Assembly: GCF_000020005.1 (NCBI RefSeq)
Contig: NC_010718.1
Coordinates: forward strand, 2,128,001 to 2,192,000
Direction of reading: 5' to 3'
DNA length: 64,000 nucleotides
DNA from: Natranaerobius thermophilus JW/NM-WN-LF
GTDB lineage: Bacteria; Bacillota; Natranaerobiia; Natranaerobiales; Natranaerobiaceae
Under the pieces are notes generated by a model. The model searched no databases. It saw nothing but the letters and a program-made list of their open reading frames with translations, and was not told the DNA's origin. The position numbers and the translations under genes are program-made. This document shows, one piece after another, positions 11,381 to 47,429 of this stretch. Every line of letters starts with the position of its first letter. The first letter of the stretch is position 1.

Positions 11381-12738
11381 TTTTCTCGCTTCCCTTCTTT
11401 AATTAGTTCTTTACTATCTTTATCCTCCTGGGCAAGTTCCATCAAACTTTTGCCCCTATCACCTGTAGTTTTCACTTTTTCTTTTGTCGGCTTTTGTAAT
11501 GATCTTTTAATACGGCTTACAAGATTTGAAATAAATTGTTGTGACCTCATAGTGGATTTTTTATTAAAGTCTTGCTTACTATGGCTCTGATCATGATTAT
11601 CATAATTACTATTTGACACTTGGGGCTGTTCTTTTCTATATTTGTAGTTTTCTAGTTCTTGAATGATACTTTTTTTAGTTTCATCACTAACTCTATGCTT
11701 TAAAGTGTGTTCTGCAATTTGTAAAATATCATCTATATCTACGCTGTCGGCATAGGCACCAGTATTTAGTAAACCAGCTTGACTTGAATTATTATCATAA
11801 TTTATTTCTTTGTTCATTAATGCGTGAAATATAGCACCAAATCTGATAGCTTTGATGGCACGCATACTTTCTATACTGTAATCAATATAAATCTTAGCTA
11901 ATAACTCACTTAATTCTTGGGGGAAATCTACCAGTCCCTCTGTTTCAGATTCACTTTCTTTAGTACGACAGTGACTGAAGTTTTTCAAAATACGATTTAA
12001 ATCATCTTCAACTGTCTTAGGATTGCTCTGCCCAGCTAGTATCTTTTGAACAACCTTTGGTTCTGCTGGCCTGAACACATTCGTTGAAAAATCGAACCTA
12101 TCAGACAATTGCTTTCTGATATTTTGTAATGATCCAGGGTCTTCATCGGGATTAGAAGCAGCCCAAACACCTAAATTAACCTGTAATTCAACTTTTGTTA
12201 ATCCAGTTTCTTCTATTTGAACTTTTCCTGGTTTAGTACCCATCACATCTAATAAGACATCGGTTAACTCAGGTGAAGTATCAGCCAAACGGTTAATTTC
12301 ATCAATAAAAATAATACCTCTATGTGCTCGCGGAATTACACCAGGTAATATCCCTGCCAAAGGCTGATTTTGGTCTGTTATTTTTTTGAGATCAATACTC
12401 CCTAAGACAGTGCCTAATTTGGCACCATGTGAAATTTCCATAAAAGGCATTTGAATCCATTCAGTCTCAAGTTTTGCAACTTCTTCTCGATTCAAATCTT
12501 TGTGCTGGGGACAATGAGGTTTTAAAGGATGGCAGTTATATACACAGTCTTTAATTCGAATGATTTTCGGAAGGTTTTTCCCTACCCCTCTAAATAAAGT
12601 AGTTTTTCCAGTACCTCTAACCCCTTCAGCATGAATATGATGTGGAATACCTAGATAAGTTGATATTGTTGAAACTTTTAGCAATTTATACAAATCCTGA
12701 TTCCCATCATGTATGACTTGACCTTGGGCATATTTCAC
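11377..12738 (-). CDS. AAA+ ATPase, ChlI/MoxR-like
   Basis: 453 residues, GTG start after GGGGTGAT. Walker A is GVRGTGKTT (39-47), Walker B IIFIDEIN (142-149), sensor 1 lies near AASNPDEDPG (194-202), and the arginine region is LSDRFDF. Between Walker A and B it has CVYNCHPLKPHCPQH with Cys65, Cys69, Cys76 and a following His, a small metal-site-like insertion. The lid is followed by a polar C-terminal tail. It resembles the ATPase subunit of Mg-chelatase. With the VWA gene downstream it forms a two-gene ATPase/adaptor module of unknown target. The tail after about residue 360 is low-complexity. Confidence 0.8.
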   Translation of the reverse strand: MKYAQGQVIHDGNQDLYKLLKVSTISTYLGIPHHIHAEGVRGTGKTTLFRGVGKNLPKIIRIKDCVYNCHPLKPHCPQHKDLNREEVAKLETEWIQMPFMEISHGAKLGTVLGSIDLKKITDQNQPLAGILPGVIPRAHRGIIFIDEINRLADTSPELTDVLLDVMGTKPGKVQIEETGLTKVELQVNLGVWAASNPDEDPGSLQNIRKQLSDRFDFSTNVFRPAEPKVVQKILAGQSNPKTVEDDLNRILKNFSHCRTKESESETEGLVDFPQELSELLAKIYIDYSIESMRAIKAIRFGAIFHALMNKEINYDNNSSQAGLLNTGAYADSVDIDDILQIAEHTLKHRVSDETKKSIIQELENYKYRKEQPQVSNSNYDNHDQSHSKQDFNKKSTMRSQQFISNLVSRIKRSLQKPTKEKVKTTGDRGKSLMELAQEDKDSKELIKEGKREK

Positions 12739-12919
12739 GGTATCACCCCACTGAATTAATAAAAGATTATTTTAATAAATGCACTTGACTATATACTGCT
12801 ACTTATTATTGTTGGCAGCTGTAGGAAATCTCAAACTTAAATCTAACAGACAATTTTCTCCAACTATGTGATAATGACACTGCTGTATTATCTTAACGAG
12901 TAAACTGGAGCGCCAATGA

Positions 12920-12946
12920 CAAAAAAATAAGCCCTTAAGGGCTTAT
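12920..12946 (-). terminator. Rho-independent terminator after the second PHP gene
   Basis: Perfect 20-base palindrome ATAAGCCCTTAAGGGCTTAT at 12927-12946, followed on the minus strand by seven T residues. It lies three bases after the PHP stop codon. Confidence 0.85.
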
Positions 12947-26441: not shown

Positions 26442-27248
26442 TTATTGGCCTTGCTGTTGTTGTGGTTGTTGACCTTGTTGGTTTTGTTGTGCTTGTTGCT
26501 GTAGTTGTTGTAAAAGTTGATTCTGTTGTTGTGGCTGTGGTTGTTGTTGGATTTGATTTTGCTGCATTTGTTGAGGTTGCTGTTGCATTTGTTGAGGTTG
26601 CTGTTGCATTTGTTGCTGACCTTGCGGCATGCTACCCAGCTGACCAATTTCATTTAAAAATTGATGTGATGATTGGTCAATTGCCTGATTCAATTGATTG
26701 TAAATCTGATTATTTCGGATCAGTTGCTGAGCTTTTGATAAAGCTTGAACTGCTGTTCTTAGTTCATTTTGCACTTGCTGATCAGTCTGTAATTGTTGTT
26801 TTTGTGCCTGCTGTTTTAATTGATCTAACATTTGAGGAAATTGTGCTAGAGTTTGCTGATTTATTTGTCCTGTAGTAGCAAATTCGTATTGACCAAACTG
26901 ATTAGGGTTAATGCCACCACCTTGACCTTGCTGGTTTTGCTGAGTAGCTTGATTTAATCCTTGTTGATATTTTTGATTCAAAGATCCGCCTCCTTGTTGT
27001 TGATTTTGTTGTCCCATTTGCTGCATCCCTTGTTGATTACCTTGTTGTTGATTTTGTTGATTGCCTTGCTGTTGGCTTTGCATGTTACCTTGTTGTTGGT
27101 TACCCTGTTGTTGGTTTTGCTGATTACTTTGACTTTGTTGAATACCTTGTTGGTTGCTACTTTGAGTATTACCTTGACTACCAAATTCTACGTTTTGCTG
27201 TTTCTTTTTAGCTAATTTATCAAAGGCACTTCCTTTGTTTTTACTCAT
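26442..27248 (-). CDS. Gln/Asn-rich low-complexity protein
   Basis: 268 residues. A short basic N-terminus (SAFDKLAKKKQQNVEFG) is followed by a Q/N/G tract to about residue 120, a predicted helical middle at about 125-205 (FPQMLDQLKQQAQKQ, ELRTAVQALSKAQQLI) and a second Gln/Met/Pro tract to the end. No signal peptide or membrane segment is seen. It follows the coiled-coil gene at 27341 and ends at its own terminator. The composition resembles prion-like or spore-coat/exosporium-type assemblies, but no family was recognised, so function is unknown. Antisense open frames over it are composition artefacts. Confidence 0.7.
   Translation of the reverse strand: MSKNKGSAFDKLAKKKQQNVEFGSQGNTQSSNQQGIQQSQSNQQNQQQGNQQQGNMQSQQQGNQQNQQQGNQQGMQQMGQQNQQQGGGSLNQKYQQGLNQATQQNQQGQGGGINPNQFGQYEFATTGQINQQTLAQFPQMLDQLKQQAQKQQLQTDQQVQNELRTAVQALSKAQQLIRNNQIYNQLNQAIDQSSHQFLNEIGQLGSMPQGQQQMQQQPQQMQQQPQQMQQNQIQQQPQPQQQNQLLQQLQQQAQQNQQGQQPQQQQGQ
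26565..26615 (-). repeat. 21-base tandem repeat inside the Q-rich gene
   Basis: The unit CATTTGTTGAGGTTGCTGTTG (21 bases in its three 7-codon frame) occurs at 26565-26585 and 26586-26606, then partly to 26615. It encodes repeated QQQPQQM. Copy number could vary between strains. Confidence 0.8.
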
Positions 27249-27340: not shown

Positions 27341-27943
27341 CTATTGCTGAGAAGCTTGTTGAGTACTCTGATTTAACTGCTGGATTGTATTCATAGTTTC
27401 TTTGAGTAAATTTTCCAGAGGTTGGTTCAATTCTGGATTCTCAGAAGAGGGCAAATTTGGTTCAGCAGTCATGGGACTTTCAATTTGAGCTAATTCTTGT
27501 TGAATTCGTGATAACTCAAATTCTAGGGCTGCAGTATTTCTGGCATGGCGTTCAGATTGTTCCTGTAAAGTACTTGAAATTTGATCCACAGTTTGAAATA
27601 AATTATTAGTTTTTTCCATTAAATTAAGGCATTTCCTATCTATACTAGATCTTTTTTGCATAATATCATGTTTTAGTTGACTATTATTTCTTAATAAACC
27701 ATTTAATCCATTACCTTGCCCTGCTTTTTCCTCAAAATTTGATAATACTCCAGAAAGGTTATTTTTCAACTCTAATTCCTCGTCCCTAACTGTTTGCAGT
27801 TGGTTTCTTAACTGCTGTATTTCCGAAATCACATAATGAAAATCATTAAGCAAAGTATCTGAAAAGCTGCTCATATTCCAACTTTGTTGACTCAGACTAG
27901 ATTTTACATTCTGCAATTGATCTTGGTTTGTTGTAGTATTCAC
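27341..27943 (-). CDS. Coiled-coil protein of unknown function
   Basis: About 200 residues from a GTG start at 27943, chosen because AGGAGGTG lies about six bases upstream; a longer reading adds 22 unlikely residues. The middle is strongly heptad-like (FHYVISEIQQLRNQLQTV, RDEELELKNNLSGVLSNF and a later FELSRIQQELAQI), followed by a polar Pro/Asn/Gln-rich tail ending QLNQSTQQASQQ. There is no signal peptide or membrane helix. It shares Gln-rich character with the Q/N-rich gene 92 bases downstream, and the two are probably one transcription unit. Not recognised; perhaps a structural or spore-layer component. Confidence 0.6.
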   Translation of the reverse strand: MNTTTNQDQLQNVKSSLSQQSWNMSSFSDTLLNDFHYVISEIQQLRNQLQTVRDEELELKNNLSGVLSNFEEKAGQGNGLNGLLRNNSQLKHDIMQKRSSIDRKCLNLMEKTNNLFQTVDQISSTLQEQSERHARNTAALEFELSRIQQELAQIESPMTAEPNLPSSENPELNQPLENLLKETMNTIQQLNQSTQQASQQ

Positions 27944-28011
27944 CCTTAACACCTCCTTGGATTGATAAAGGTCATCAATAATATGATAAGCAGTTGTTAG
28001 TTTGTGCAATA

Positions 28012-33482: not shown

Positions 33483-34667
33483 TTATACTAAAGCAGCCAA
33501 CACCGATGTCCTTACAATAATTCCCATCAATTCATTGTTATCATTAACTACTGCAATGGGATATTTACTATCTTTAGCCACAGGTATTAATTCGTGGATG
33601 TATATCTCCGGATCAGTAGTATAGTAATTATCAGTTATAACATCCCTTAGAAATTTATTTTCTTTAATTGCGTCTATAGCATCATCAATACTGACAATAC
33701 CAAGTAATTGCTTGTTTTTATCAATCACATATACACTTGAAATGCCGTTTGTCTGCATTTCTCTTACAGCTGATTTCAAACCTTCATTAATATTAATAAT
33801 AGCCGAAGGATTGAACATAACATCTTTAGCTTGTAGAACTTTGGAACGATCAATGTCTTTGACAAAATCCTTAATATACTCACTTGCAGGATTGTCTAAG
33901 ATTTCTTCTGGTGTACCAACTTGTTCAAAAACACCATCTTTCATCACTGCTACCCTATCCCCTATTTTAAAAGCTTCATTGATATCATGAGTTATGAATA
34001 CAATAGTCTTTTTTAAATTTGATTGCAAGTCAATCAGTTCTTGCTGCATTTCTCTTCTAATAAGGGGATCTAGTGCACTAAAAGGTTCATCCATCAGCAA
34101 TACTTCCGGGTCATTGGCAAGAGCCCTGGCGAGCCCAACCCTTTGCTGCATTCCGCCACTCAATTCGCTGGGCATTTTATCCTCCCAGCCTTTTAAACCG
34201 ACAGATTCAAGAGTCTTTCTCGCTAATTCTCTTCTGTCTTGTTCACTTGCACCTTTAATTTCTAAACCAAATTCTACATTTTCTAGTACTGTTCTATGAG
34301 TAAATAAACCAAAGTGTTGAAAAACCATAGATAATTGATTCTGTCTAAAATCCCTTAATTTTTGTTTATCAAATTCTAGAATATTATCCTCGTTTACGTA
34401 AATTTCTCCGGTAGTAGGTTTATTTAATAAATTAAGACACCGGATTAATGTAGACTTACCTGAACCAGACAATCCCATAATAACAAAGGTTTCTCCTTCT
34501 TTGACATCAAAAGAAACATTATTTACACCAACTGTATGTCCAGTTTTTGAAAGAATGTCCTCTTTCGACTGATTTTTTTCAAGTAAGGGTAAAACTGACT
34601 TTGGCTTAGGACCGAAAATCTTTGACAAATTTTTAACTTTAATTTTTTCACTCATATTAGTGGTCAT
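33483..34667 (-). CDS. opuAA: Glycine betaine/proline ABC transporter ATP-binding protein
   Basis: About 394 residues from ATG 34667, with GGGAG eight bases upstream. Walker [11 protein letters not shown]-loop FQHFGLF, signature LSGGMQQRVGLARAL and Walker B LLMDEPFSALD are all present. Residues about 275-394 are tandem CBS domains (VREMQTNGISSVYVIDKNKQLLGIV and a second DNNELMGIIV), typical of OpuA/ProV and used for ionic-strength or nucleotide sensing. It powers compatible-solute uptake in osmoprotection. It is the third gene of opuAC-opuAB-opuAA, an order opposite to Bacillus opuA. Confidence 0.93.
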   Translation of the reverse strand: MTTNMSEKIKVKNLSKIFGPKPKSVLPLLEKNQSKEDILSKTGHTVGVNNVSFDVKEGETFVIMGLSGSGKSTLIRCLNLLNKPTTGEIYVNEDNILEFDKQKLRDFRQNQLSMVFQHFGLFTHRTVLENVEFGLEIKGASEQDRRELARKTLESVGLKGWEDKMPSELSGGMQQRVGLARALANDPEVLLMDEPFSALDPLIRREMQQELIDLQSNLKKTIVFITHDINEAFKIGDRVAVMKDGVFEQVGTPEEILDNPASEYIKDFVKDIDRSKVLQAKDVMFNPSAIININEGLKSAVREMQTNGISSVYVIDKNKQLLGIVSIDDAIDAIKENKFLRDVITDNYYTTDPEIYIHELIPVAKDSKYPIAVVNDNNELMGIIVRTSVLAALV

Positions 34668-34717
34668 TATCAAAACTCCCAGTTATTTTTATTTTGATTC
34701 GTATTACACAGTCAACT

Positions 34718-35566
34718 TTACTCTGTGTATTTGAATTTATCCCCAATTGATTGGGTGAGCCTGTCTATTATAATGGCCAAAAATACTATACTAAGGCCAG
34801 CCTCTACTCCCCGAGCTACATCTATTCTGTTGATTGCTATATAAACTTCCATTCCTAGTCCATCAGCCCCTATCATAGCTGCAATTACTACCATAGCTAG
34901 TGCCATCATAGTAGTTTGATTAGTACCTGCTAAAATGGTTGGTAGGGCCTGGGGTATTTGTACCTTGGCCAATAATTGTACCGGAGAAGCTCCAAAGGAT
35001 TTACCCGCTTCTACCATTTCCTTTGATACTTTCCTTATACCTAAATCAGTCAATCTGATTACTGGTGGAATAGCATATATTATAGTGGCAAATACTGCTG
35101 GAACTGTCCCCATATGAAACAGAATTATAGCCGGTATTAAGTAAACAAAGCTAGGCATAGTCTGCATACCATCTAAAATCGGTGTGATAACAACTGACAT
35201 AATACGGTTATAAGCCATTAAAATCCCAATGGGTATACCTAAAACTATGGATATAACAACTGATGTTACTATAATAGCCAGTGTTTCCATCATAGGTACC
35301 CAAAGACCAAAAGTCCCGATCACAAATAAAAACACGGAAAATAATACTCCTGAAGAAATTGTTCTTAATTTCCAACCAAGTAAAAATATAAATAATACAA
35401 ATAACCACCAAGGTAGCCAAATCAAAAAACCTTCAATATTAGAAATCAAATTGAGAATCACATAAAAGATAAAATCAAATAAAAACTCTAAATTTGTATC
35501 TAGCCAGTTGACAAAACTCTCTACATATTGCCCAAATTCTATGGTGATATCAGGAAATTCTCTCAT
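34718..35566 (-). CDS. opuAB: Glycine betaine/proline ABC transporter permease
   Basis: 282 residues with about six or seven membrane helices (for example FDFIFYVILNLISNIEGFLIWL, WWLFVLFIFLLGWKL, MVVIAAMIGADGLGMEVY). The permease EAA loop is DLGIRKVSKEMVEAGKSFGASPVQLLAKVQIPQALPTILAGTNQTTM, which docks on the ATPase. Its role is to form the membrane channel for betaine uptake. It lies between the binding protein and the ATPase; a strong hairpin separates it from opuAC. Confidence 0.93.
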   Translation of the reverse strand: MREFPDITIEFGQYVESFVNWLDTNLEFLFDFIFYVILNLISNIEGFLIWLPWWLFVLFIFLLGWKLRTISSGVLFSVFLFVIGTFGLWVPMMETLAIIVTSVVISIVLGIPIGILMAYNRIMSVVITPILDGMQTMPSFVYLIPAIILFHMGTVPAVFATIIYAIPPVIRLTDLGIRKVSKEMVEAGKSFGASPVQLLAKVQIPQALPTILAGTNQTTMMALAMVVIAAMIGADGLGMEVYIAINRIDVARGVEAGLSIVFLAIIIDRLTQSIGDKFKYTE

Positions 35567-35575
35567 AAGATTGTG

Positions 35576-35610
35576 ACTGCTCCCGTAGAAGTGATTACAA
35601 CGGGAGCAGT
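35576..35610 (-). terminator. Intercistronic hairpin between opuAC and opuAB
   Basis: ACTGCTCCCGT (35576-35586) pairs perfectly with ACGGGAGCAGT (35600-35610). No strong T-run follows, so it may be a partial terminator or an mRNA stabiliser that favours the binding protein over the membrane components. Confidence 0.55.
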
Positions 35611-35650
35611 GTTTATCTCACCTCACTATGTGCTTATTATTAAAATACAA

Positions 35651-36676
35651 TTATTGCTGTAAATATTCTCTAACATTTTCAGCCACTTCTTCATTAACCC
35701 ATTCAGTCCAAATCTCTTCATATTCTCTTAAAAACCATTTTGCTGCTCCTCGTTCATCTGCATCAGCTTCTTCCGTATAAGCCAAAGCTTCACTTGTTAC
35801 TTCACTACTAGTCTCATAATTCTCCAAAAACTCAACTACCTCGGGATGTTCCTCTGCTAAATCAGAATTAACTGCTACTGTAACGTCCATAGAAGGAATT
35901 TCAGTTCCATATCCTTCTTCGTAATATTTTTCCTCATCAAATTCTGGTTCTTCTAATAAAGTCATGTCATATTTACCCATAATCCATGTAGGTTCCCAGT
36001 TATACGCCACAACTGGTTCGCCACTTTCATAGGCATCCATTATAGTTGCATTCAACGTAGATTCTGAACCAGGACTCACATAATTAAAGTGTTCATCTAA
36101 TCCGTAAGTTTCTACCTTAATTTCAAGGATTTCATCTACTGCCCATTCGGAGGGAGCCCCTATTATCCGGCCTTTATCCGGGTCTTCCGGATCCTGAAAC
36201 TCTTCCCAATAATCAGGTAAATCAAACACAGACTCTAAATTAGGCGCAATAGGATCGATTCCCCGGTCCTCATCACCTTCTATAACATAGGTGGGTACAT
36301 ATAATCCTTGAAAGTTGTCATCAAAATTAATCGACAGGACCTGGATTTCACCTTTTTCTAGGGCTTCATTGTACTCCTCTTGGATATTTTCTTTCCACAC
36401 TTCCATGTAAATGTCAATTCCGCCACCGCGTAAATCAGTAAAGGTTACCGGTGTAGATCCAGACATTATATCTTGTCTATATCCACCATATCCTTCTTCC
36501 AAAATAATCCCTGCTATATAGTTATGTACCCTAATACTTTCCCATCCTGCATCTGCAAAAGTTAGTTCAACCTCATCCTGAGCTTCGCTGTCTGCACAAC
36601 CGGTTACTCCCAAAACTAACATGCCAAAAAGTATAGCAAAAACACATTTTTTGATAATACTATTGATAACTCTCAT
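35651..36676 (-). CDS. opuAC: Glycine betaine/proline ABC transporter substrate-binding lipoprotein
   Basis: 341 residues. The lipoprotein signal ends in VLGVTGC with lipid-anchored Cys27. The OpuAC-type binding domain includes FTDLRGGGIDIYMEVWKENI, YVSPGSEST and AYNWEPTWIMGKYDM, with aromatic residues typical of the ammonium-binding cage. The protein is very acidic, as expected for a secreted protein of a halophile. It captures glycine betaine and passes it to OpuAB/AA. As the first gene of the operon it has its own promoter upstream. Confidence 0.9.
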   Translation of the reverse strand: MRVINSIIKKCVFAILFGMLVLGVTGCADSEAQDEVELTFADAGWESIRVHNYIAGIILEEGYGGYRQDIMSGSTPVTFTDLRGGGIDIYMEVWKENIQEEYNEALEKGEIQVLSINFDDNFQGLYVPTYVIEGDEDRGIDPIAPNLESVFDLPDYWEEFQDPEDPDKGRIIGAPSEWAVDEILEIKVETYGLDEHFNYVSPGSESTLNATIMDAYESGEPVVAYNWEPTWIMGKYDMTLLEEPEFDEEKYYEEGYGTEIPSMDVTVAVNSDLAEEHPEVVEFLENYETSSEVTSEALAYTEEADADERGAAKWFLREYEEIWTEWVNEEVAENVREYLQQ

Positions 36677-41996: not shown

Positions 41997-42941
41997 TTAT
42001 TCGTAAGCTTCACGCAATGCTTCTTGAGCATCTTGTCCATCGACAGTTTCTAATCCATCAACCCACTCTAATACCTTATCTAAGTTCTCGCTAATCCATT
42101 CATCCGCAACTTCGTCTGGGTCACGGTCTTCATAACCGTATTCGTAAACCCATTCGTCAACAGTGTCTACATCTACGTCAAATTGTTTCAAATATTGAGC
42201 TAGTTGTGGATTGTCATCTTCTAAGCCAGGTCTTGCAATGGTACCAACTTGCTCACCTTCACCCCAAATTCCTTTGGGATCATCCAAATATTCCATATCG
42301 AATATTACATTCATGTAATGGGGTTCCCAACCGCTAAAGACTACCCATTCTTCATTTTCTATCTTTTGCTCAACATCAGCGATCATAGCAGCTTCATTAC
42401 TTTCCATGATATCCCATTCACCTAGACCGTAGGTATCATTTTCAAAAGCTTCGATCATAATCTCATTACCGTCATTCCCTGGTTCCAAGCCATAATAAGT
42501 ATACTCAAATTTTTCCGAGTGATCGGCTAAATCTTCTAGGGAGGTTACCCCTTCCTCATATACATAAGTGGGAACAGCTGGCGCGTAATTAGTTTCATCT
42601 AAATGAGTTTCTAAATGAACTACATCCCCTTCTTCCAAAGCATTTTCAAGGGGGGTTCCCCAAGTTTGAAACCATGCATCTGTAAAGGCATCAATTTGCC
42701 CATCTGCCATTCCTTCAAGGATTACAGGGAGATTGTAAGTCTTAACGTTAACATCGTAACCTAATGTCTCTAATACAGCTTCGTTGATATGACTCTTCTG
42801 AGTAGAGCATGTCCATTCGACCATAGCAAGTTCTACATCTCTTTCTTCTTCACATCCGGTAGCAATCCCTGCAAAAATAATTCCTGTAATAAGCATTGCT
42901 ACTATTAAAACTTTACGTTTTCCGCTTCCATGAGCGTTCAT
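41997..42941 (-). CDS. Solitary OpuAC-type betaine/choline-binding lipoprotein
   Basis: 314 residues. The signal peptide ends in GIATGC with lipidated Cys30. The OpuAC domain has MVEWTCSTQKSHINEAVL, YNLPVILEGMADGQIDAFTDAWFQTWG and VFSGWEPHYMNVIF, with Trp/Tyr residues of the quaternary-ammonium cage. It is distinct from the opuAC at 35651 and has no permease or ATPase beside it. It lies 3' of the GbsR/AOR/GbsB-like cluster and has its own promoter, so it may deliver choline or betaine to a shared transporter (inference). Very acidic. Ligand specificity cannot be read from sequence. Confidence 0.82.
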   Translation of the reverse strand: MNAHGSGKRKVLIVAMLITGIIFAGIATGCEEERDVELAMVEWTCSTQKSHINEAVLETLGYDVNVKTYNLPVILEGMADGQIDAFTDAWFQTWGTPLENALEEGDVVHLETHLDETNYAPAVPTYVYEEGVTSLEDLADHSEKFEYTYYGLEPGNDGNEIMIEAFENDTYGLGEWDIMESNEAAMIADVEQKIENEEWVVFSGWEPHYMNVIFDMEYLDDPKGIWGEGEQVGTIARPGLEDDNPQLAQYLKQFDVDVDTVDEWVYEYGYEDRDPDEVADEWISENLDKVLEWVDGLETVDGQDAQEALREAYE

Positions 42942-42991
42942 AATTAAATAGTACCCTCCTCGTTTTTATCTATAATTTGTTCTGTTTATAA

Positions 42992-43020
42992 AGTATAAGC
43001 TTTTCAATACTATACTGCAA
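42992..43020 (-). promoter_or_regulatory. Promoter of the solitary binding-protein gene
   Basis: Minus-strand TTGCAG (43015-43020) and TATACT (42992-42997) are 17 bases apart. The spacer contains AGTATAGTATTG, which shares GTAT/ATAC elements with the inverted repeats near gbsR. Confidence 0.55.
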
Positions 43021-43173
43021 AACTCATTTAGCTTTATAACTATCGGTTATTCGTCCTCAGCACTACTTATTCCTTAAATCAGGGGTAATTTCTCCATATT
43101 TGACGTTATTACTATTTAATTAGGTTTAATGCGCTTCCATTTTTAAAGTCACTCATCACTGATCATCCCTTAT

Positions 43174-44349
43174 TTAGAAGCATGAACGATAAATTTCTTC
43201 ATATCCTTTTACATCGATATCTCTTGGATTTCCAACTGTTTGTGGATCATAATAAGCTTCTTTAGCAAGCCTAGGAATCATGTCTTCTGATACACCTAAA
43301 TCGCCTAAAGTCGGCACATCAATGTCTTCAGATAGCTGATACACTGCCTCAACAGAAGCCCTAGCAGCTTCATGTAAGTCCATACCGTGAGTATCTACAC
43401 CTAGAGCATTGGCAATGCGCGCAAACTTATGAGGTGCTCCAATCCAGTTATACTCCATTGCAGGAGCTAAGGTAGCTGCTACTGCCTGACCATGAGGTAC
43501 AGAGATAATTCCTCCTAGTGTTTGAGTCATGGCATGAACTGCTCCAGCACTATCGCCTCCGTATGATATACCTGCTAACATAGCTGACATAGCCATACCA
43601 TAACGAGCTTCTATATCTTGACCATTACCTACTGCTCGTCGGAGATATTTACCTGCGTACTCAATGGCTAAAAGTGCTGCTGCATCAGTAGTTGGTTGAG
43701 AATAGTGGCAAGTATAGCATTCTATAGCATGACAAAGTGCATCCATTCCTGTTCCTGCTGTAATAGATGGGGGCATTGTAACATGTAATTCAGGATCAAT
43801 CAATGCTAAATGAGCCGTAATCAATGGTCCACCAGTATTAAATTTAAATTCTCTCTCAGGGTCTTTTATTACAGCCCATAGGGTAACTTCACTTCCGGTT
43901 CCTGCAGTCGTAGGAACAGTCACCAATGGTGGTATTCTTTTAGTCATTGGTTTCTTACCCTCAGCGGCTTCATATTCTACAACAGGGCCATCATGAGAAA
44001 TTTCTAGTCCCATAGCCTTTGCAGTATCCATGGAGCTTCCCCCACCAACAGCAATCATACCATCGCAATTCTCTTTTTTATATGCTTTAGTACCATTGGC
44101 TACTATTTCCAAATCTGGATCTGCTTCTACCCCATCATAAACTGCATAGGGGATACCTGCTTCATTTAATGACTCTTCAATAGGTTTGATAAGTCCTGCA
44201 TCAATAACTCCCTTATCAGCTACAATAATTGGCTTACTTACGTTAAGTTCCTTTAACTCATTGGCAATTTCCTTGATAATTCCTAATCCGTGCTTAGTTT
44301 TAGTAGGCAATACAAACTCATTTTCCTGCATCTGTTCAAATCTCAACAT
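43174..44349 (-). CDS. gbsB: Iron-containing (type III) alcohol dehydrogenase, GbsB/choline dehydrogenase-like
   Basis: 391-residue type III Fe-dependent dehydrogenase. NAD-binding GGGSSMDTAK; the conserved TTAGTGSEVT stretch; metal-ligand regions DALCHAIECY, AVHAMTQTLGG and VPHGQAVAATLAPA. Many stretches, including EFKFNTGGPLI..AHL and IDPELHV.MPP, match what I recall of Bacillus GbsB, which oxidises choline to betaine aldehyde. It follows the AOR gene with a 62-base gap and a hairpin. A general alcohol substrate is the alternative. Confidence 0.8.
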   Translation of the reverse strand: MLRFEQMQENEFVLPTKTKHGLGIIKEIANELKELNVSKPIIVADKGVIDAGLIKPIEESLNEAGIPYAVYDGVEADPDLEIVANGTKAYKKENCDGMIAVGGGSSMDTAKAMGLEISHDGPVVEYEAAEGKKPMTKRIPPLVTVPTTAGTGSEVTLWAVIKDPEREFKFNTGGPLITAHLALIDPELHVTMPPSITAGTGMDALCHAIECYTCHYSQPTTDAAALLAIEYAGKYLRRAVGNGQDIEARYGMAMSAMLAGISYGGDSAGAVHAMTQTLGGIISVPHGQAVAATLAPAMEYNWIGAPHKFARIANALGVDTHGMDLHEAARASVEAVYQLSEDIDVPTLGDLGVSEDMIPRLAKEAYYDPQTVGNPRDIDVKGYEEIYRSCF

Positions 44350-44381
44350 AATAAAATCCCTCCTGATTAAATTTAATTTAG

Positions 44382-44407
44382 AAACTTCAAATTAGTTTTT
44401 GAAGTTT
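44382..44407 (-). terminator. Hairpin between aor and the alcohol dehydrogenase
   Basis: AAACTTCAA (44382-44390) pairs with TTGAAGTTT (44399-44407) around an 8-base loop. There is no clean T-run, so read-through to the dehydrogenase is likely. Confidence 0.45.
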
Positions 44408-44411
44408 AATT

Positions 44412-46265
44412 TTAAAGTTTATCTTTTAAGCCCAGTTGGGCTAACTTCTCCTCTGTAGGACGGCCTTCTTCATCCCATCCTCTATGATAGTAGTACTCTT
44501 GAAGCATAATTTTTTCATCTTCTTGGGTGAATTTGTGACCTTTTGCCGGGCCATCAGGCAATGGTTCGTAAAATCTTTTAGGTAGTTTTTCGTGTTTTTT
44601 AGTTAATCCTTGTTTTAAGTTAAAGAGTCTGCTAACATTCCAAATTCTTTCACCCAGTTGATATAAACGATCTTGACTAAACTCTTCACCCGTAGCGGCT
44701 TCAAACAATTCACGGTACGATTCCTCTGAAATACCAAAGGTACCGAAATCACACTTAACAAAAGTGTCCAATGCCGCAATGAAATTTTGATCATTAGCTA
44801 CAGTTTCTGCTTTACCATGGACTTCTAATCTTTCAAAAGTCTTGCCATTAAATTCAGCACCGCCAACTTCGTAATCAATGGGGAAGGCACGTTGATGGCA
44901 AGCTCCACGGTCAGCCGTCATATAAGCCAGACCCATTCCGGGTACTCCTCTCGGACCCCATGCTGGTATATCCATACCTTTTACATGTGAAGCCCTTGCC
45001 TGAGCATTGGTACCTAGCTCTTCGGCAGCTTTTTTAGTGCCTTTTGCCAGTAAATTACCTAGATATCCCTTCTTATTGGCAATGTCCTTCAAAACTCTTT
45101 CAGCACTTTCTGAATCACCAAAGGACATATCTATACCATCGCAGTCTTCTGGTTTTAAGATGCCTTCTTCAAAACATTCCATAGCAAACCCTATAGTAGA
45201 ACCACCAGACATGCCATCGATTCCTAAGGCATCGCATAGATATACTAAATAAGCTACTTCTCTAATATCTGAGATCCCCAAGTTCGTACCCATTAAAGCT
45301 GCAGTCTCATATTCAACTATGTCTGAAACAGTTCCTCGTCGCTTACCATCCTTAATCACACCAACTTTGCTGCATCTGATTGGACATGAAGCACAACCTT
45401 CATCTCTGAGCCAAATTTTTTCGCTTTGAGCTTGATGAGCCAATCCATCGGGATTAAAAGTACCCTGTTGGTAGTTTTTGACCGGTAATAATCCCTCACT
45501 ATGGGCAAACCACAAAGCTGCTGCAGTTCCTGCTTCAGTGAGTTCTTCTATCTCTTCGGACTGTTCTAATTCTTTTCTGGCTTTAGCAATTGCTTGATCG
45601 AACCTCTCCAGATCATGAATTTTTACAGTATTGGTACCTTTTATGGAAAAGGCCTTTAGCTGTTTACTTCCCATGACAGCTCCTATGCCGCCACGTCCAG
45701 CATGACGATTGTACTCACACGATACCAAGGCATAAGGAATTAAATTTTCACCAGCTTGGCCAATGGTAGCAATTTTTAAGGTTTTATCATTCATATCAGC
45801 TTTTATCTGATGATTAGTTTCAAAAGTATCTAAACCCCAGTATTTCTCAGCGGGTAATATTTCAACTTTATCATCTTCTATTGTTATCATGACAGGTTTA
45901 TCAGCTTTACCTTTTAGAACGAGGGCGTCATACCCCGCATACTTGATTTCCTGGGCCAAATTACCACCATAGTAAGAGTCTACATATCCCCCAGTTAAAG
46001 GAGATGTTGACACAACAACTCCTCGCATGGCAGGAGCATCAGTGCCAGTTAACGGACCACCCGCAAAGATTACTGGATTTTCTTCTCCATAGGGATCTAC
46101 ACGCTCATGGTTTCGCGTTTCACGGTATAATAACCAAGTGGCGAGTCCCTTGCCACCGACAAACAACTCTTTAATGTCCTCGGAAATTTCTTCAGTCCAG
46201 GATTTATTGTTGCTTAAATCTACATGCAAAATCTGATTCATTGCACCTAAGTTACGGAGTTTCAT
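44412..46265 (-). CDS. aor: Aldehyde:ferredoxin oxidoreductase (AOR, tungstopterin)
   Basis: 617 residues. Family landmarks: VGGKGLATWLL, GGPLTGTDAP, the pterin-binding NRHAGRGGIGAVMGSK, and [4Fe-4S] ligands CASCPIRC (Cys291, 294, 298) with Cys505 in KCDFGTFG. AORs oxidise aldehydes to carboxylic acids and reduce ferredoxin, using a tungsten or molybdenum bis-pterin. The ATG overlaps the ferredoxin stop (ATGA), with GGGGTGA upstream, so the pair is coupled, as in AorAB. With GbsR and a GbsB-like enzyme beside it, betaine aldehyde is a plausible substrate (inference). Confidence 0.93.
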   Translation of the reverse strand: MKLRNLGAMNQILHVDLSNNKSWTEEISEDIKELFVGGKGLATWLLYRETRNHERVDPYGEENPVIFAGGPLTGTDAPAMRGVVVSTSPLTGGYVDSYYGGNLAQEIKYAGYDALVLKGKADKPVMITIEDDKVEILPAEKYWGLDTFETNHQIKADMNDKTLKIATIGQAGENLIPYALVSCEYNRHAGRGGIGAVMGSKQLKAFSIKGTNTVKIHDLERFDQAIAKARKELEQSEEIEELTEAGTAAALWFAHSEGLLPVKNYQQGTFNPDGLAHQAQSEKIWLRDEGCASCPIRCSKVGVIKDGKRRGTVSDIVEYETAALMGTNLGISDIREVAYLVYLCDALGIDGMSGGSTIGFAMECFEEGILKPEDCDGIDMSFGDSESAERVLKDIANKKGYLGNLLAKGTKKAAEELGTNAQARASHVKGMDIPAWGPRGVPGMGLAYMTADRGACHQRAFPIDYEVGGAEFNGKTFERLEVHGKAETVANDQNFIAALDTFVKCDFGTFGISEESYRELFEAATGEEFSQDRLYQLGERIWNVSRLFNLKQGLTKKHEKLPKRFYEPLPDGPAKGHKFTQEDEKIMLQEYYYHRGWDEEGRPTEEKLAQLGLKDKL

Positions 46266-46711
46266 TTAACTTCACCCCTTTTTTCTCCAGACTCTCCATG
46301 ATCACAGTCTCCATGATCACAATAGGTTAACGCCCCTGTGGGACAATTTTTGACACAAAGGGGGTCTCCACCACAGAGATCACATTTGGAAGCTTTTTTG
46401 TCCATCATCACAATTACATCTCGAGGGCAATACTTTTGGCATTGGCCGCATCCGATACATTCATCTTGTACGACGACAGGGATTCCGTTTTCCCGTTTTA
46501 TAGCTGATACGGGACATACTTTTTCACAGAATGCATTGTCACATTGATTACAGACTATCGGATCTGATACTAAAGCATCCATTTTTGATTCAAGACGTAG
46601 CCGGGCAAAACGTGGATTATAACCTCCGGCCAATCGCCTGGAACAGACCAATGTACAGATTTCACAACCGGTACAAAGATCGAAACTTGCAATTAATTTT
46701 CGGATAGCCAT
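46262..46711 (-). CDS. Four-cluster ferredoxin, AorA/HycB-like
   Basis: 149 residues with four [4Fe-4S]-type cysteine groups: CTGCEICTLVC (13-23), CNQCDNAFCEKVCP (54-67), CIGCGQCQKYCP (85-96) and CDLCGGDPLCVKNCP (109-123). It carries electrons from AOR to downstream acceptors. The tail CDHGDCDHGES adds extra Cys and His and may bind another metal. It is the first gene after the operon promoter and overlaps aor by four bases. Confidence 0.92.
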   Translation of the reverse strand: MAIRKLIASFDLCTGCEICTLVCSRRLAGGYNPRFARLRLESKMDALVSDPIVCNQCDNAFCEKVCPVSAIKRENGIPVVVQDECIGCGQCQKYCPRDVIVMMDKKASKCDLCGGDPLCVKNCPTGALTYCDHGDCDHGESGEKRGEVK

Positions 46712-46762
46712 ATTAAGTCACCCTTTTTATTATTTTTATAAAGTTTTTACTGAACAGACTGA

Positions 46763-46795
46763 ATACATTGTATATAAAAAAAGGCCTTTTGACAA
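46763..46795 (-). promoter_or_regulatory. Promoter and putative GbsR operator upstream of the ferredoxin gene
   Basis: Minus-strand TTGTCA (46790-46795) and TACAAT (46767-46772) are 17 bases apart. An ATACATTGTAT inverted repeat (46763-46773) overlaps the -10. A repressor bound there would block transcription of ferredoxin, aor and the alcohol dehydrogenase. The site overlaps the terminator of gbsR. Confidence 0.6.
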
Positions 46796-46812
46796 TTGCA
46801 TTAAAAGGCCTT
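46774..46812 (-). terminator. Terminator of gbsR
   Basis: AAGGCCTTTT (46781-46790) pairs with AAAAGGCCTT (46803-46812), followed on the minus strand by seven T residues. Confidence 0.8.
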
Positions 46813-46877
46813 GAGATTTTATGACGTAGTTACTTCTTCGATTTTCTCTTCTGTGCTCTTAATTTTACCGAAATATA

Positions 46878-47429
46878 CTATTCTTTGGGAATAAAGTCGA
46901 ATATCTCTCCCGATTCTATACTTCTGGCCAATTTATTAAGCCATATATAATATTGCTTTGCTTCTTCTAACTTTTTCAAGTCTTTTTCCGCCTCTTTACT
47001 GACTTCTCCATCACTACTTTCAGCCATTTCTTTTAGTTCCGGCTCAACTTTTTTAATGGCTTCCATGTTTACTTCAATTTCTCTCTTCCACATAGGAATG
47101 AAGAAGTTAAGAAAGGTATTAAAAAAATCTGTTTCTCCTTCGTATAAATGCTTGCGAACCCCTTTTTTCCATACTTTTTTCACCATCTTATTTTTTTCTA
47201 AGCGTCTGACACCAGTGCTCATACTGGTTTTACTCATACCCATCATATCTCTCAGTTCATCTAAAGTCTTTGGTTCATCACTGAAATAAAGTATGGCATA
47301 TAATCTCCCAATAGAAGGGGGAACTCCATATAGGTCCATGGTTTGAGCCATAGCGACACTGATTTCCGATCTCAATTCTTGAAGTTTCTCAAAGGAATCA
47401 TTTCCATTTTGCTGCTCTTTTCCACTCAT
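46878..47429 (-). CDS. gbsR: GbsR/MarR-family transcriptional regulator
   Basis: 183 residues. Winged helix at about 30-110: YGVPPSIGRLYAILYFSDEPKTLDELRDMMGMSKTSMSTGVRRLEKNKMVKKVWKKG, matching GbsR as I recall it. The C-terminal helical part includes FFNTFLNFFIPMWKREIEVNMEAI, the likely dimer/ligand region. In Bacillus, GbsR is a choline-responsive repressor of gbsAB and opuB. It sits directly upstream of the ferredoxin-aor-gbsB-like genes, so it probably regulates them by choline. Confidence 0.85.
   Translation of the reverse strand: MSGKEQQNGNDSFEKLQELRSEISVAMAQTMDLYGVPPSIGRLYAILYFSDEPKTLDELRDMMGMSKTSMSTGVRRLEKNKMVKKVWKKGVRKHLYEGETDFFNTFLNFFIPMWKREIEVNMEAIKKVEPELKEMAESSDGEVSKEAEKDLKKLEEAKQYYIWLNKLARSIESGEIFDFIPKE

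Follow-up and report, generated by a model that had tools for sequence, protein, structure and literature searches.

A putative choline-to-glycine betaine operon of Natranaerobius thermophilus in which a ferredoxin-linked aldehyde oxidoreductase would take the place of GbsA

How might a salt-loving anaerobe complete the oxidation of choline to glycine betaine when it has no GbsA? The question is raised by five genes that lie together in a window of 64,000 nucleotides from N. thermophilus (the whole stretch of DNA analysed; contig NC_010718.1, positions 2,128,001 to 2,192,000). As in the Bacillus subtilis GbsR-GbsAB system (PMC6207618, PMC7396694), there is a GbsR/CudC-type repressor, a GbsB choline dehydrogenase and Opu-type uptake, but GbsA, the NAD aldehyde dehydrogenase of Bacillus, is absent and a ferredoxin subunit and an aldehyde:ferredoxin oxidoreductase (AOR) stand in its place. 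An earlier note on this DNA had proposed a ferredoxin-linked choline or osmoprotectant route. As a genomic inference the proposal is supported, and the operon is likely to represent choline-to-glycine betaine synthesis with the AOR replacing GbsA.

Read on the minus strand from 47429 to 41997, the order is regulator, 16-Cys ferredoxin, AOR, GbsB and ChoX-like binding protein. All five open reading frames are intact, and the arrangement on one strand is as the earlier note had it. The ferredoxin stop codon overlaps the AOR start (46262-46711 and 44412-46265, respectively). A strong terminator-like hairpin, with an 18-bp stem and a T-tract, is found 3' of the last gene (41980-41939, minus strand) and appears to end the transcription unit; no hairpin comparable to it is present in the intergenic gaps within the cluster. 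The intergenic promoter/operator region (46712-46877, minus strand) has a perfect 12-bp inverted repeat at 46781-46812, which overlaps a sigma-A-like promoter at 46795-46767. Does this repeat represent an operator? Strong inverted repeats are also found in several promoter regions of the related clusters described below, but these share no common sequence and that of 46781-46812 is absent there, so the operator role stays a suggestion.

The GbsB-like iron alcohol dehydrogenase of the earlier note is borne out by family scores. This type III protein (43174-44349, minus strand, 391 aa) scores 661.3 bits against the choline dehydrogenase family NF053866, where the equivalog cut-off is 550; its best rival family gives 318.6 bits, below that family's own cut-off, and the protein falls far under all other equivalog cut-offs. 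Choline dehydrogenase activity is predicted. GbsB was found in 12 of 398 genomes of the phylum. Two of these (G138 and G313) have the classic GbsB plus GbsA, the adjacent betaine-aldehyde dehydrogenases scoring 771 and 789 bits against 669 for TIGR01804, and their GbsB proteins are 61% identical to that of N. thermophilus. In the remaining ten, which span eight families, GbsB instead has the genes for an AOR and a ferredoxin as its neighbours (within ~5 kb in G342). In this sample the ferredoxin-AOR pair and GbsA are mutually exclusive as GbsB neighbours, and the association of GbsB with ferredoxin and AOR is far beyond chance (Fisher p ~3e-17). These clusters were located by a whole-genome search with GbsB. 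Because it depends on exact peptide stretches, a scan for related loci that started from the AOR had retrieved distant relatives alone, at 26-39% identity and outside any comparable GbsB/CudC context; class-wide searches around G080 and around G389 revealed no further GbsB clusters.

Might a GbsA reside elsewhere and act with the cluster? The earlier note had seen none in the cluster and had named a distant copy as grounds for rejecting its proposal. None is present, either adjacent to the cluster or genome-wide in N. thermophilus. The sole intact aldehyde dehydrogenase of the genome is a P5C (glutamate-semialdehyde) dehydrogenase (807 against 614 bits). A broken aldehyde dehydrogenase gene at C2:745461-746833 is not taken for the remnant of a GbsA, as its pieces score best as succinic-semialdehyde or benzaldehyde dehydrogenase. 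Absence was checked genome-wide in five genomes and in the cluster neighbourhood in G115, G250, G342, G349 and G389. G001 shows no match to the aldehyde dehydrogenase superfamily anywhere in its genome; the matches in G084 are all AdhE-like or ProA-sized, and those of full length in G002 and G080 are methylmalonate-semialdehyde dehydrogenases.

The AOR (44412-46265, minus strand, 617 aa) carries both AFOR domains, PF02730 and PF01314, above gathering score (245.7 and 421.6 bits), in agreement with the earlier assignment, and its AF2 model (pLDDT 82) matches 1aor and 9g7j with a Foldseek TM of ~0.9. The second-shell residues Thr243, Glu313 and His448 (Pyrococcus furiosus numbering) are kept as T247, E320 and H457; Tyr427, described as conserved and aldehyde-positioning in AORs (PMC12096430), is replaced by W436. 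This is a departure from the AORs described in that work, the family itself being defined by fold and cofactor. The cluster AORs retain these catalytic Thr, Glu and His residues, but at the Tyr427 position of the active site Trp is found in nine of the ten and Phe in one, versus Tyr or His in 38 of 39 other AORs. An extra aromatic residue near the metal would fit a trimethylammonium substrate, and the enzyme is proposed to be a betaine-aldehyde oxidoreductase. The cluster AORs form a clade of their own (89/73). However, the sister AOR of G147, which adjoins branched-chain-type ABC transporter genes, also has Trp but no GbsB, and so the Trp is no proof of a betaine substrate.

Upstream of the AOR, the 149-aa AorA-type polyferredoxin (46262-46711, minus strand) has 16 Cys in four motifs, for four [4Fe-4S] clusters as had been noted, and the motifs are conserved in the ten clusters. 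Its best PDB match is 8c0z_C, the small subunit of the Aromatoleum AOR. A. aromaticum AorABC (8c0z) likewise joins a catalytic AOR to a four-cluster polyferredoxin subunit. It differs in its AorC FAD subunit, which was not seen in any of the ten cluster neighbourhoods, in keeping the Tyr at position 427 and, presumably, in substrate.

Regulation and transport also point to choline. The GbsR-like regulator (46878-47429, minus strand, 183 aa), a MarR-type protein and predicted choline-sensing repressor, is marginally over the cut-off for CudC (NF047500, 218.5 bits against 218) and keeps five of the six Phe of the DFFxFFxxFF stretch of Bacillus-type proteins, as aligned to those of G138 and G313 and not to GbsR itself. 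CudC orthologues adjoin GbsB in seven of the ten AOR-type clusters and in both GbsA-type clusters. The binding protein (41997-42941, minus strand, 314 aa), a predicted lipoprotein, matches PF04069, consistent with the OpuAC type first assigned to it. Its best NCBIfam model is the choline-binding TIGR03414, at 238.8 bits and below the cut-off of 379; its best PDB match is Sinorhizobium meliloti ChoX (2reg). The ligand positions of ChoX are an aromatic box, Asn156 and Asp45. Five of these six are kept, with the same Trp/Trp/Tyr/Trp box (W43, W90, Y119, W205) and N156 invariant among the cluster relatives, whereas Asp45 is Cys here and Gly in the G080 and G115 relatives. An AlphaFold model of the protein was too poor for use (pLDDT 49) and was discarded. 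A complete Opu transporter is encoded nearby on the minus strand: an ATPase with CBS domains (33483-34673), a permease (34718-35566) and an OpuAC-type binding protein (35651-36676). In G084 (ATPase 606 bits, permease 360 bits) and G342 (596 and 351 bits) its orthologues immediately adjoin the GbsB/AOR cluster, and it is the probable partner uptake system.

How would these components act together? Choline, or betaine aldehyde, would release the CudC/GbsR repressor, and choline would enter via the ChoX-like binding protein and the Opu ABC transporter. GbsB would oxidize choline to betaine aldehyde with NAD, and the AOR catalytic subunit with its polyferredoxin would convert betaine aldehyde to glycine betaine. 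The latter step would pass two low-potential electrons to ferredoxin, and Rnf could convert these to an ion gradient; four rnfC genes are present. A literature search found no published description of a ferredoxin-AOR choline-to-betaine pathway.

To what end would glycine betaine be made? Choline might serve mainly as an electron donor, the betaine being exported or demethylated. This would fit the G389 operon, which adjoins genes for non-amber MttB-type methyltransferases and for a corrinoid protein whose nearest family is MtgC, although its score lies below the MtgC cut-off, and low-potential electrons together with the four rnfC genes would conserve energy. N. thermophilus, however, has no MttB-family methyltransferase gene to degrade the product, and an osmoprotective role is what its CudC and its Opu-type uptake suggest; a mainly catabolic pathway is thus unlikely, and glycine betaine is most likely an osmoprotectant in this organism. 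The two roles are compatible with each other.

The main rival holds that the alcohol dehydrogenase and AOR form a general alcohol/aldehyde oxidation module, with osmoprotectant genes adjacent by chance. Its model is the adjacent pair of Desulfofundulus kuznetsovii, reported to be strongly induced by methanol and ethanol, with NADH and reduced ferredoxin as proposed products (PMC5770442, PMC10907483); the available parts of these accounts mention no choline regulator or osmolyte transporter. In the structural comparison with choline-specific relatives that the earlier note suggested, the binding protein is nearest ChoX, and the solved relatives nearest the dehydrogenase are methanol and 1,3-propanediol dehydrogenases, with no GbsB structure among the matches. 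CudC, moreover, is missing from three clusters (G250, G349 and G389). Against this stand the GbsB family scores and the recurrence of CudC, ChoX-like and Opu genes beside GbsB in multiple families. The 11 closest relatives of the AOR are the ten GbsB-linked proteins plus one, after which scores fall from 575 to 460 bits, a gap that weakens the idea of any dehydrogenase-AOR pair; neither GbsB nor CudC is encoded near any of the eight AORs that rank next. The linked clade occurs only with GbsB-type dehydrogenases, with one exception, and the other iron dehydrogenase/AOR pair of this genome (L057) has a different AOR, 27% identical. A general module appears improbable. That the AOR works in reverse, as AORs with low-potential donors can reduce acids (PMC12096430), or merely clears toxic aldehydes leaking from other metabolism, is very hard to credit, since, with GbsA absent and the pairing with GbsB strict, the aldehyde step would have no enzyme other than the AOR.

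With choline-to-betaine synthesis as the preferred reading, we lean towards the view that tungsten AORs in which the Tyr-to-Trp change holds the trimethylammonium group constitute a hitherto undescribed subfamily of dedicated betaine-aldehyde:ferredoxin oxidoreductases, through which strict anaerobes would gain reduced ferredoxin and energy while making an osmoprotectant. If so, a specific substrate could be assigned to one clade of the tungsten-type AORs, whose native substrates are often uncertain. One step of a classic stress pathway would have undergone non-homologous replacement across at least eight families, and the synthesis of an osmoprotectant would repay energy as reduced ferredoxin, and not as NADH alone.

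Natranaerobius thermophilus JW/NM-WN-LF is an anaerobic halophilic alkalithermophile with a genome of 3,191,453 bases in three contigs, and the window belongs to the 3,165,557-base contig (C2). The five minus-strand open reading frames at 41997-47429, read in an earlier note as a choline to glycine betaine cluster in which an aldehyde:ferredoxin oxidoreductase (AOR) takes the place of the betaine-aldehyde dehydrogenase (BADH) GbsA, are present as described. By curated models, they include the regulator CudC/GbsR (218.5 bits, cut-off 218), the choline dehydrogenase GbsB (661 bits, cut-off 550) and the AOR, whose frame overlaps by four bases that of a ferredoxin with 16 cysteines. A strong terminator-like hairpin lies 3' of the last gene, and the intergenic gaps of the cluster hold none comparable to it. 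Within the 166 bases between regulator and ferredoxin, a perfect inverted repeat of 12 bases overlaps a promoter-like sequence and may be the operator; the repeat was not found at the other clusters considered here.

Could a GbsA be encoded elsewhere? A search of the genome, estimated as 99.98% complete, found none, and the absence proposed earlier thus holds genome-wide. The one intact gene of the aldehyde dehydrogenase (ALDH) superfamily encodes an L-glutamate-gamma-semialdehyde dehydrogenase (807 bits, cut-off 614) and has as neighbour a gene resembling FAD-dependent oxidoreductases. Another ALDH (C2:745461-746833; locus L058:3294-4855) was rejected as a GbsA: it is split by frame changes and a stop and is not BADH-like, its pieces resembling semialdehyde or benzaldehyde dehydrogenases. 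With one ALDH of another type and the other broken, betaine aldehyde is left without an NAD dehydrogenase of its usual type in N. thermophilus.

GbsB exceeds its cut-off in 12 of 398 sampled genomes of the phylum. Two (G138, G313) carry beside it an ALDH above the BADH equivalog cut-off; in the other ten, which span eight families, GbsB is accompanied by ferredoxin and AOR, without an ALDH at the locus (G000, which is N. thermophilus, and G001, G002, G080, G084, G115, G250, G342, G349 and G389). The four nearest GbsB orthologues (72-88% identity) are all grouped with CudC, a four-cluster ferredoxin and AOR. In G342, CudC and Opu genes separate GbsB from the ferredoxin and AOR genes. Gene order varies, with AOR 5' or 3' of GbsB and CudC codirectional or divergent; this speaks for a linkage maintained by selection and not just by common descent of one block. 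In whole-genome searches, G001 has no ALDH match, G084 has just two, an AdhE-like protein of 879 aa and one of 421 aa, and the full-length ALDHs of G002 and G080 are only CoA-acylating methylmalonate-semialdehyde dehydrogenases.

With the N. thermophilus AOR as query, the same 398 genomes yield 11 AORs of at least 575 bits, namely those of the ten clusters and one from G147, after which the score drops to 460 bits. Among the AORs next in rank, eight have neighbourhoods without GbsB or CudC. G138 and G313 are absent from the genomes with a match to this query. For co-occurrence, Fisher p is ~3e-17, uncorrected for relatedness. A tree of 49 AORs unites the ten (89/73), and these with the G147 protein (100/100); N. 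thermophilus has four more AORs, 27-32% identical to the cluster AOR, which are placed elsewhere. The G147 sister (locus L143:726-2741) adjoins branched-chain-type ABC transporter genes and has no GbsB. A further N. thermophilus locus, L057:5229-12835 (C2, ~1.901-1.909 Mb), holds a CudC paralogue (174 bits, below the 218 cut-off), an isochorismatase-like gene and an OpuAC protein; beyond a transposase-like gene lies an ErcA-like Fe-alcohol dehydrogenase paired with a different AOR (27% identical).

An AlphaFold model of the cluster AOR (pLDDT 82) superimposes on 1aor, 9mqx, 9g7j and 1b25 with TM ~0.9, and alignment with the P. furiosus AOR shows Thr243=T247, Glu311=E318, Tyr312=Y319, Glu313=E320 and His448=H457 to be kept. 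A 2025 review (PMC12096430) counts Tyr427 among the conserved second-shell residues and ascribes to it the positioning of the aldehyde. Nine cluster AORs have Trp at this site and the tenth has Phe; among 39 others it is occupied by His in 26, Tyr in 12 and Trp only in the G147 sister, so Trp also occurs outside GbsB clusters. Tyr452 is replaced by Phe, Leu or Met. A trimethylammonium group would be well accommodated by one more aromatic side chain near the metal, through cation-pi contacts. The ferredoxin is nearest to AorA of the Aromatoleum AOR. None of the clusters was seen to carry the FAD-type AorC of that enzyme, an absence that favours ferredoxin over NAD as the electron acceptor.

For the OpuAC-domain binding protein, choline-binding is the best-scoring family (238.8 bits, below the 379 cut-off) and choline-binding ChoX the best solved relative. 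All its relatives at the clusters retain W43, W90, Y119, N156 and W205, but Asp45, a ligand residue of ChoX, is replaced by Cys or Gly. There is no permease gene within the operon. An Opu transporter (33483-36676) lies 5.3 kb away, beyond opposite-strand aro genes, and is a likely partner, since its orthologues directly adjoin the cluster in G084 and G342. Of the OpuAC matches in the genome, two (C2:2902021-2902755 and C2:1084430-1085224) are broken by stops or a frame change. Elsewhere in the window, a very glutamine-rich low-complexity frame of 268 aa (26442-27248) is followed by a coiled-coil-like one (27341-28009). Bacillus GbsR is responsive to choline and betaine aldehyde (PMC7396694).

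In full-text literature on AOR with betaine aldehyde or choline dehydrogenase the route is not described, and the main text of a survey of GbsR gene neighbourhoods (PMC6207618) mentions neither ferredoxin nor tungsten; most subscription papers lie outside this coverage, so the negative falls short of proving novelty. The nearest precedent is the alcohol dehydrogenase-AOR pair of Desulfofundulus kuznetsovii for methanol and ethanol (PMC5770442, PMC10907483). The genomic case that ferredoxin-linked oxidation would replace GbsA is strong, with betaine aldehyde the presumed AOR substrate. Four rnfC genes over cut-off (C2:522717, 561532, 1140429, 2783651), seemingly unusually many for one genome, could allow energy conservation from reduced ferredoxin. 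As the N. thermophilus genome has no MttB-family methyltransferase, glycine betaine is more likely retained as an osmoprotectant than demethylated by the MttB route. The operon as found in G389 lies beside three MttB-type methyltransferase genes without amber stop (locus L122:474-4170 and 11504-12922, including a corrinoid gene), the corrinoid protein being nearest to MtgC but below its cut-off; elsewhere, as in G389, the module may thus serve choline or betaine catabolism.
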